A DNA stretch of 18,788 bases from Streptosporangiaceae bacterium. GTDB taxonomy: Bacteria; Actinomycetota; Actinomycetes; Streptosporangiales; Streptosporangiaceae. Location: contig JASHQP010000490.1 in assembly GCA_030039095.1 (NCBI GenBank), positions 1 through 18,788 on the forward strand, written 5' to 3'. Below the pieces are notes generated by a model. It did no database searches. It saw only the letters and a program-made list of their open reading frames with translations, and had not been told where the DNA came from. A program made the position numbers and the translations under genes. How positions within the stretch are numbered: position 1 is the stretch's first letter; every line of letters begins with the position of its first letter. Below, piece after piece: positions 1,040-15,197 of the stretch.

Positions 1040-2478
1040 CGCCCTTCCTCCACGCTCGGGGCGTCCTGTGGCGCCGCGACCTGGCCGTTGCGCTCGCGGC
1101 TGGCCTTGAGGAATGCGTAGATGATGATGCCGGCCAGCACGATCACCATGGCCTCGTACACGGCGGCGTACCCGGCGGCGAACGTGACCCACATGGAGAA
1201 CAGGACCGCGGCGGCCGTGATCATCAGGTCGCGGGCGAGCAGCCACCCCTGCACGCGGCGGCGCTTGGACACCAGGTAGGCGAGCTGTGCGCACGCGGAC
1301 ATGAGGTAGGGAATCGCGACCGTGACCACGGTGAGGTCGACCAGGTAGGTGAAGACCGTCAGCCCGGTCTTCGTGGTGTAGGCCCACAGCATCAGCAGCG
1401 AGGGCAGCACCGCCGCCGCCACGATGCCGAACCACGCGTTGTCCCTGCGGTCGGCCCAGGCGAACGGCCGCGGGAACAGGCCGTCGTTGGCGGGCGCCCT
1501 GGACACCTCGGCGGTGACCAGGGTCCAGCCGTTCAGCGCGCCGATCCCGGACACGACCGCGAGCGCGGCGACCAGCTTGCCGGCCCAGGCGCCGTGGGTG
1601 AAGATCGTCTCGAACGCGGGAACGAACGGCGCGGTGCTGTTGACCAGCACGTGGTGCGGGACCAGGCCCATCACGGCGGCGGTCACCAGCACATACAGGA
1701 TCGCGCAGGCCGCCGTGCCGGCCACCGACGCCAGGCCGACGTTCCGCCGCGGGTTACGCACCCGCTTGGCAGTGATCGCCGCCACCTCGACGCCGATGAA
1801 CGAGAACAGCGCCACGCCCGCGGCGATACCGATCGCGCTGTACAGGCTTCCGCCGGAGGCGTTGAACGGGCCGAAGTTCGCCTTGGAAACGAAGAACCAG
1901 CCAACCACGCCGACGAACAGCAGTGGCAGGAACTTCAGCACGACCGTCAGGTTCTGGAACCAGGCCATGTTCCTGACCCCGGCCAGGTTCACCACCGCCG
2001 GGACCCACAGGCCCAGCAGCGCGATGCCCCAGTTCGTCATCCCCGACGGCTTGCTGATCCCGAACAGCGCGTCGACGTACAGCACCCAGGCCGACACGAT
2101 CGCGGCGTTGCCGGCCCAGGCCTGGATCCAGTAGCACCAGCCGGTCAGGTAGCCGGCAAAGTCACCAAACTCGTGCCTGGCGTACGCGTAAAGACCGCCA
2201 TCGGAGTTCGGCACCCGCTTGGTGAGCTGGCCGAACATGACAGCCAGCAGCATCGCGCCGATCGCGATGACGGCCAGCGTGGCCAGCGAACTGGTTCCGG
2301 CCCCGGCCAGCACGGCTGGCATCGCGAACACTCCCGTGCCGACGATGCTCCCGATGACCAGGCCCGTCGCCGACGTGACTCCAAGGGCGTGGGCCTTCTG
2401 CTGGTTTCGCGGGGACATCTGCTCGGTTGATCCCTGCTGCGCCCGGTGGGGGAACCGGACGCCGAGATGGCTGGACAT
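1036..2478 (-). CDS. APC-superfamily basic amino acid/polyamine antiporter (arginine/ornithine type likely)
   Basis: This is a 480-residue integral membrane transporter of the amino acid-polyamine-organocation superfamily. The TM1 signature GLVIGSIVGTGVFAMPA (about residues 38-54) is the unwound substrate-binding helix of this family. About 12 hydrophobic segments follow, with GVEVAAITAKRVRNPRRN in the middle. The ATG at 2478 has GGGAGGGAT just upstream; a second Met at codon 21 lacks a comparable site. The stop overlaps the ATG of the ADI fragment (ATGA), so the permease and deiminase are probably translated together. From this context I infer arginine/ornithine (or citrulline) exchange for the ADI pathway; the sequence alone gives only the superfamily. 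A DosR-like box lies 94 bp upstream. The C-terminal tail NGQVAAPQDAPSVEEGR has been copied onto the truncated ADI. Confidence 0.88.
   Translation of the reverse strand: MSSHLGVRFPHRAQQGSTEQMSPRNQQKAHALGVTSATGLVIGSIVGTGVFAMPAVLAGAGTSSLATLAVIAIGAMLLAVMFGQLTKRVPNSDGGLYAYARHEFGDFAGYLTGWCYWIQAWAGNAAIVSAWVLYVDALFGISKPSGMTNWGIALLGLWVPAVVNLAGVRNMAWFQNLTVVLKFLPLLFVGVVGWFFVSKANFGPFNASGGSLYSAIGIAAGVALFSFIGVEVAAITAKRVRNPRRNVGLASVAGTAACAILYVLVTAAVMGLVPHHVLVNSTAPFVPAFETIFTHGAWAGKLVAALAVVSGIGALNGWTLVTAEVSRAPANDGLFPRPFAWADRRDNAWFGIVAAAVLPSLLMLWAYTTKTGLTVFTYLVDLTVVTVAIPYLMSACAQLAYLVSKRRRVQGWLLARDLMITAAAVLFSMWVTFAAGYAAVYEAMVIVLAGIIIYAFLKASRERNGQVAAPQDAPSVEEGR

Positions 2479-15197: not shown

Follow-up and report, generated by a model that had tools for sequence, protein, structure and literature searches.

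The question raised by this locus is whether the window, that is, the whole 18,788-nucleotide stretch of DNA analysed, carries a compact DosR-type regulon outside the mycobacteria, as proposed in the initial annotation, and which genes such a regulon would drive. From comparisons of its regulator, putative regulatory boxes and gene families, the window is very probably an island of the DosR/DevR type, serving survival at low oxygen (or redox stress), in an uncultured Streptosporangiaceae-like actinobacterium. Counterparts of this kind had been described before: the OsdR/OsdK system (SCO0204/SCO0203) of Streptomyces coelicolor has been known since 2016 as a DosR-family regulon outside mycobacteria (PMC5069765), and DosR boxes have been predicted in Rhodococcus equi, with the relaxed consensus NNNGGGHCNWWNGNCCCBNN (PMC2947987). 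The results below fit a class known since OsdR, with a predicted target set that is distinct.

The candidate regulator, a protein of 240 aa with receiver and LuxR-type HTH domains (PF00072, GerE), is encoded on the minus strand, from 4967 to 4245. Among solved chains, M. tuberculosis DevR (3c3w) matched it best with 281 bits, against 146 bits for the next, VraR, and it is 60% identical to M. tuberculosis DosR across 212 residues. The recognition-helix stretch AEKTVKNYVS is identical in both proteins, and residues D54, T82, K104, K179, K182 and N183 of DosR are all conserved at an offset of +19. We take Thr82 and Lys104 to be key residues of DosR, and Lys179, Lys182 and Asn183 to be DNA contacts. 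Asp54 is the phosphorylation site of DosR (PMC3029386). The DosR-like recognition helix first attributed to this protein was thus borne out. In a 46-row tree, it fell within an 18-row Streptosporangiaceae/Trebonia clade (support 96/90); DosR, the OsdK-adjacent regulators and the other clades came off a multifurcation of this tree, which has few outgroups, on long branches. Close relatives number at least 7,946 at E<=1e-60 among the 8,000 matches scored. The nearest loci came from Streptosporangiaceae-type soil MAGs (regulator identity of 87-88% in L001-L003), and the genome containing L001, called G001, matches the window at 87% for GAPDH, 87% for the permease and 90% for a V/A-ATPase subunit.

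The families named at the outset (USP, DUF1918, Rv1733c) were all found around the regulator. Universal stress proteins (PF00582) are encoded on the plus strand at 3801..4241, 10325..10801 and 10801..11310, the last being scored on a longer frame (10738-11310). A DUF1918 protein lies at 2607..2810 (minus strand; PF08940, 62.6 bits for a cutoff of 24), and an Rv1733c-family membrane protein at 9471..10082 (minus strand; NF050032, 111.6 bits for a cutoff of 80). DUF1918 is, we assume, a characteristic DosR-regulon target. The other genes encode an HTH and pyridoxamine 5′-phosphate oxidase-like protein (3069..3773, plus strand; PF12900, PF13560), a second-type GAPDH placed 43 bp ahead of the regulator (5011..6012, minus strand; TIGR01534 above cutoff), a SulP transporter with a STAS domain (6150..7838, minus strand; PF00916, PF01740), an MFS transporter (7855..9447, minus strand; PF07690), a small protein, membrane-like by eye and without family above cutoff (11431..11658, plus strand), an arginase/agmatinase-superfamily protein (11681..12439, plus strand; PF00491, with TIGR01229 under its cutoff) and a P-type ATPase (12555..15197, plus strand). 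The latter had been listed as recurring in or next to the mycobacterial DosR regulon; an equation with the ATPase of that regulon was rejected, as the protein passes the MgtA-type Mg-importer model TIGR01524 (736.7 bits versus a cutoff of 610.75).

Putative boxes were searched with two matrices. The first, called OsdR matrix, was made of 25 published S. coelicolor OsdR sites (PMC5069765). Its four best matches in the window were all intergenic (11310, 11332, 2572 and 2986), the fifth was inside MgtA and the sixth at 6116, while 10160, 10236 and 12466 ranked low (95, 31 and 104, respectively). At a score of at least 8, five intergenic and two coding matches were obtained, a total of 7 versus 3.4 in shuffled sequences (reached by 5% of 300 shuffles), and at score 10, 5 matches versus 1.2. 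This excess being modest, the total count was dropped as the main test, and replaced by the contrast between intergenic and coding DNA and by a matrix derived from relatives. Over the 15 regulator loci closest to the window, the OsdR matrix gave 9 intergenic and 7 coding matches at a score of at least 12, compared to an intergenic mean of 0.5 and a maximum of 2 for matrices with permuted columns (n=100). The other 65 loci gave 17 intergenic and 28 coding matches (permuted columns: mean 2.4, maximum 11). The column-permuted matrices had no intergenic preference.

The second, called clade matrix, was obtained by iterative refinement, with the OsdR matrix as seed, on 252 intergenic regions from 36 loci of relatives, the window being excluded (73,399 bp, including 60-bp flanks that reach into neighbouring genes). 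It converged to AGGGACCWWGGTCCCT, with 87 sites, a motif that has the mycobacterial form, as opposed to that of Streptomyces. Applied to the held-out window at score 9, it gave 10 matches centred in intergenic DNA and 2 in coding DNA (1,453 versus 17,320 bp; Fisher 4e-10). Nine matches were wholly within intergenic stretches (shuffle mean 0.18, maximum 2 in 200 shuffles), and 10 were found in the whole window at a score of at least 11 (shuffle mean 0.57, maximum 4). Retraining without the G001 loci again yielded 10 intergenic and 2 coding matches. Out of 40 permuted seeds, 3 arrived at this motif, with 10 intergenic and 2-3 coding matches, and the others yielded at most 3 intergenic matches; the coding mean was 18 over all 40. 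Plain patterns were also counted: GGGACYTTNGKCCCT, at up to 3 mismatches, had 19 matches in the window (shuffle mean 5.4, largest 13), and the published relaxed DosR core GGGHCNWWNGNCCC, from the R. equi paper (PMC2947987), at up to 1 mismatch on both strands, had 21, where 6.1 were expected and 200 shuffles reached 16 at most, corresponding to 12 places, 9 of them intergenic. Box scores are therefore above those of random sequence, by the intergenic contrast obtained with the clade matrix, and modestly so with the OsdR matrix. Two good matches lie inside the MgtA coding sequence, at 12821 (clade score 12.5) and 13172 (14.5), which means that not all matches are promoter sites; these two correspond either to chance or to an internal site. 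Genome-wide motif counts in six relatives (67 versus 37 for a reversed-pattern control; 8 versus 11 in G005) were dropped as a definition of the regulon, the excess being too weak. Twenty regions around matches in G001 and G003, holding 25 of the 33 forward matches (two more are in L122, and six of G003 were left out), contained clear regulon genes mixed with unrelated ones.

With the clade matrix, boxes were present in all 6 promoter-capable intergenic regions of at least 100 bp (clade and OsdR scores are given in this order hereafter). The strongest, AGGGACGTAGGTCCTT at 2572..2587 (20.7 and 12.1), precedes the permease-deiminase unit, and has a counterpart at a like place in relative L122. 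Between the divergent DUF1918 and HTH-oxidase genes, a weaker box at 2965..2980 (11.6 and 2.1) stands 21 bp from the one at 2986..3001 (11.6 and 12.0). The box at 6116..6131 (9.8 and 8.6), 111 bp before GAPDH, matches GGGHCNWWNGNCCC exactly. The region between the divergent Rv1733c-family and universal stress protein genes holds boxes at 10160..10175 (13.8 and 1.0) and 10214..10229 (15.3 and 4.5), the latter with a partner 22 bp away, at 10236..10251 (9.6 and 4.3). Before the small membrane protein and arginase-like unit, a box at 11310..11325 (15.2 and 13.4, the first rank with the OsdR matrix) also has a partner at 22 bp, 11332..11347 (8.3 and 12.6), and MgtA is preceded by boxes at 12466..12481 (11.7 and 0.8) and 12504..12519 (13.5 and 5.2), 38 bp apart. 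The convergent region 15198..15488, our internal control, had no box at score 8 with the clade matrix. All seven sites listed in the initial annotation exist, and belong to the top 12 of the clade matrix; their strength depends on the matrix, as 10160, 10236 and 12466 are weak with the OsdR one, and 10214, 12504, 2965 and 11332 were missing from that list. The accompanying claim, that sites precede every transcription unit with a promoter in the window, holds for the six regions and fails for the 43 bp between GAPDH and the regulator, where the clade matrix found no box. The regulator was therefore taken as cotranscribed with GAPDH, and both genes probably form a box-led operon.

The distance between a box centre and the closest plausible start codon is 43-124 bp. 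Pairs occur in three regions of the window, at 21, 22 and 22 bp; the spacings of 38 bp (12466/12504) and 54 bp (10160/10214) are outside this rule. In relatives, 120 strong sites led to 69 partner sites (score of at least 5, 16-80 bp away), among which 28 were at 21-23 bp; counting was done from both sides, so that a mutual pair counts twice, and some anchors are inside called frames. The mean score was −15.6 at 22 bp, compared to −24.2 across all offsets (sd between offsets 1.3). DevR binds adjacent primary and secondary sites cooperatively (PMC3029386); the 22-bp figure itself comes from the present analysis of relatives.

No DosS-type kinase was found in the window. In 12 of the 15 closest loci (all but L001, L005 and L008), the neighbourhood of the regulator includes a relative of one kinase (57-66% identity; 100% in L004 itself). 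The L004 protein has the domain order GAF-GAF-HisKA_3-HATPase_c, and its first GAF domain matched best 2vzw (172 bits), which we take to be DosT, and DevS (169 bits). A strict pattern around the supposed heme histidine, presumably the heme ligand, is present in 9 of the 12 kinases near the regulator. A DosS-type kinase is encoded in 19 of the 20 genomes examined (the exception is G290). In G001, it is on a different contig from the regulator copies, so that a kinase far from the regulator would not be unusual in the genome of the window either.

We then analysed the permease-deiminase unit. Its first gene encodes a basic amino-acid antiporter-like permease of the APC family (1036..2478, minus strand; PF13520), whose top NCBIfam model, basic amino acid/polyamine antiporter, scored under its cutoff. 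The arginine deiminase that follows (443..1039, minus strand) is only 198 aa long and corresponds to the N-terminal half (positions 2-152 of the 377 of PF02274); a second copy, also N-terminal (3..446, minus strand), runs off the window. The two form a tandem repeat (1-494/594-1087) of some 494 bp with 88% DNA identity, which results either from an old duplication or from an assembly effect. The deiminase proposed as a target in the window is thus not a full one, and, the copy adjoining the permease being truncated, any functional copy would have to be outside the window. By eye, the tail of the 198-aa copy resembles the C-terminus of the permease.

In relatives, the box recurs at this place. 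Eight permease rows, including that of the window, were compared (73-100% identity), and in 6 of them the best box ended 87-108 bp before the start; the box of L123, one of the 6, had 4.2 with the OsdR matrix and 11.0 with the clade matrix. The box was at −270 in L128, and the best site of L126 scored only 5.4. Three distant permeases (47-51%) had no box. Neighbours of the unit include ornithine carbamoyltransferase in L110 and L123, and an amino-acid-kinase-family protein, read as carbamate kinase, in L110 and L127. Arginine deiminase being present in 247 of the 297 genomes of the order, an order-wide comparison was carried out. A 66-74% deiminase copy was listed at 21 places, 20 of which made up the test set (all but the second one in G254; the query genome G006, with a box of 22.2, was also excluded), and the control set comprised 20 of many lower-ranked deiminase places, ten of them second copies in test-group genomes. 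A permease stands ahead of the deiminase in all 20 test loci. Within about 2.3 kb upstream, a box of score at least 11 was found in 16 of 20 test loci versus 1 of 20 controls (Fisher 1e-6), and the yields became 13 versus 1 at score 13 (7e-5) and 8 versus 1 at score 15 (0.01), these rows being phylogenetically non-independent. Four controls reached 10.8-11.0, which makes 13 a fairer cut than 11. The extrapolated permease start, possibly placed about 25 residues too far upstream, follows the end of the box by 16-44 bp in 14 of the 20 loci. Genes of relatives were called mechanically, with uncertain start codons. L279 and L285 had boxes only elsewhere, and L275, L277, L280 and L286 had none of at least 11. 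The control with a clear box, L303, is one of the two controls having an adjacent permease, the other, L306, reaching 10.8. A DosR-type regulator (at least 70% identity) is encoded in 17 of the 18 test-group genomes, about 2-17 kb from the operon in seven of them. In G291, whose operon has no box, no regulator was found at 1e-60 among the 150 of 169 candidates scored. G133 has a deiminase copy with a box about 11 kb from a regulator and a distant copy without, and G312 has one copy with a box and one without.

In M. tuberculosis, arcA, encoding arginine deiminase, was reported to be induced in potassium-starved dormant cells (PMC4221891, PMC8044303), and the anaerobic arginine metabolism of this species was the subject of a 2008 paper cited in PMC11720245; the passages concerned contain no tie between arcA and DosR. 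No link of DosR/DevR with arginine deiminase, or of DosR with Streptosporangiaceae, was found in the openly licensed literature searched, including that on regulon comparison, which is not proof of absence. The box before the permease-deiminase operon in relatives is therefore new, and the arginine-fermentation arm undescribed, as far as this literature goes. We lean towards the following view: across the order, a DosR-type switch would have taken over anaerobic ATP supply, by directly driving the antiporter-deiminase operon and, within the family, also a second GAPDH, whose gene adjoins those of pyruvate:ferredoxin oxidoreductase in some genomes. Dormancy entry would then include a dedicated arginine fermentation, the other deiminase copy remaining outside the regulon.

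The second-type GAPDH (70-87%) is present in 14 of 150 family genomes; G001 has in addition a GAPDH of the other type, at 61%. In L087 (G001), the 87% ortholog adjoins the regulator, an arrangement also found in the window. Elsewhere, it is near universal stress proteins in some loci, near pyruvate:ferredoxin oxidoreductase genes in L103 (PF01558 and PF01855 tested) and, by likeness of the listed starts, in L089 and L106, some 5-7 kb from hypC/hypD in L107, and ahead of an Rv1733c-family gene and a DosS-type kinase in L108 and L109. The oxidoreductase neighbourhood suggests a wider anaerobic module. Among 15 GAPDH rows, an OsdR-matrix box of at least 8 was found within 320 bp in the window, L107, L108 and L110. 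L089 had 7.1 with this matrix and 16.4 with the clade one, and the remaining rows were below 8, often with another gene close upstream (only 70 bp were available upstream in L104). Compared to known DosR-type regulons, a second GAPDH beside the regulator is a new element. In L103 (10982-16852), GAPDH is also near an acetyl-CoA hydrolase/transferase gene.

The initial annotation had extended the target set to the deiminase, GAPDH, MgtA, the MFS transporter and the arginase-like protein. This extension stands for the permease-deiminase operon, through its relatives, and in part for GAPDH. For MgtA, distant orthologs had strong boxes in 2 of 9 cases (17.3 and 15.5), and L137, without box, had just 80 bp upstream; for the MFS, SulP and arginase-like genes, position alone makes them candidates. 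The window may be a stress island of mixed nature: the permease-deiminase and USP/Rv1733c units would be genuine targets, and MgtA, SulP, MFS and the arginase-like gene passengers. The scarcity of boxes before MgtA orthologs, the OsdR scores of its two boxes in the window (0.8 and 5.2), and the near or complete lack of separate box evidence for the MFS, SulP and arginase-like genes speak for it; against it, MgtA and the small-protein/arginase-like unit both have clade-matrix boxes in the window. We consider this alternative a real possibility, on balance not the better one.

A different alternative bears on the regulator: the boxes would be real, but served by a paralogue of the regulator family, the window regulator being an orphan or answering a non-oxygen signal. 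Several points go in this direction. In the closest genome, G001, the regulator has four matches at 84-89%, one of them full and three partial (C455, C331, C695, C360), due to recent duplication or to mixed strains, and there are two in G004; a 73% paralogue occurs in three Streptomyces genomes, at a distance from their DosS-like kinases; the recognition helix is common with DosR, so that sequence alone hardly separates the candidates; and the window has no kinase. We nevertheless regard this alternative as rather unlikely, since the window regulator is inside the box-bearing island, probably in the box-led operon with GAPDH, and has kept the phospho-acceptor Asp. That the palindromes are a by-product of the 72% GC content, or have another function, for instance as terminators, is very improbable: apart from the modest OsdR-matrix total, which would agree with it, the restriction to intergenic DNA, the empty convergent region, the 22-bp phasing and the conserved position in relatives all oppose it, as do the permuted-column matrices, which lack the intergenic preference, and the permuted seeds, which gave at most 3 intergenic matches when off the motif.

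Under the preferred reading, a DosR-type survival island, a heme GAF kinase of the DosS/DosT type, with its gene in another part of the genome, would phosphorylate D73 of the regulator as oxygen falls. The phosphorylated regulator would occupy a strong box and bring another dimer onto the weaker box nearby, at a distance of two helical turns. It would then turn on the stress proteins, DUF1918, the Rv1733c-family proteins and MgtA, the antiporter-arginine deiminase unit, and GAPDH together with itself, in a positive feedback. The metabolic logic may be that glycolysis and arginine breakdown supply ATP during the respiratory stop.

Compared to OsdR, whose binding to selected sites was observed by EMSA, the window shares boxes around the regulator's own neighbourhood, and universal stress proteins and pyridoxamine 5′-phosphate oxidase are among the predicted OsdR targets. 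It differs by the motif (published consensus AGGGCCGATCGGCCCT versus clade motif AGGGACCWWGGTCCCT) and by the absence from the window of nitrate reductase genes, which are predicted OsdR targets, whereas arginine deiminase and GAPDH are not in Table 1 of the OsdR article (PMC5069765). In M. tuberculosis, the DosR consensus is TTSGGGACTWWAGTCCCSAA and Rv1733c is among the regulated units (PMC2275270), as are universal stress proteins (PMC5069765). With this system, the window has in common the regulator family, boxes of the mycobacterial form TTSGGGACTWWAGTCCCSAA, the Rv1733c family, universal stress proteins and paired sites (PMC2275270, PMC3029386); the differences are the 60% identity of the regulator, the MgtA type of the ATPase, the lack of an adjoining kinase and the added metabolic units. 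R. equi likewise has DosR-type boxes outside mycobacteria, and the core of its consensus finds sites of the window (PMC2947987), but it is a lineage separate from the window organism.

The way in which non-growing aerobes are energised via DosR-type regulons has mainly been investigated in mycobacteria. The arginine-fermentation operon, preceded by a DosR box at a constant position, is a specific, recurrent and cheaply testable predicted target; the second deiminase without clear box in ten of the same genomes is a ready control, and cultured relatives permit testing without a pathogen.

The window ends with the V/A-type ATPase genes D, B and A (15489-18788), the operon head being outside. This ATPase was dropped as a direct target: no consistent box was found ahead of it in 15 neighbourhoods (of 16 genomes), where some contigs end before the operon head. 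V/A-type ATPase genes are present in 16 of 150 family genomes, several beside USP, CBS, DUF1918 or hydrogenase-type genes. They adjoin the regulator, an Rv1733c-family gene, a USP and the kinase in L004/L192, and share one contig with GAPDH, the regulator and a USP in G090. Finally, one MAG (L014) has two DosR-type regulators about 5 kb apart (4464-5303 and 9968-10708), close to genes that look to us like cytochrome bd oxidase.
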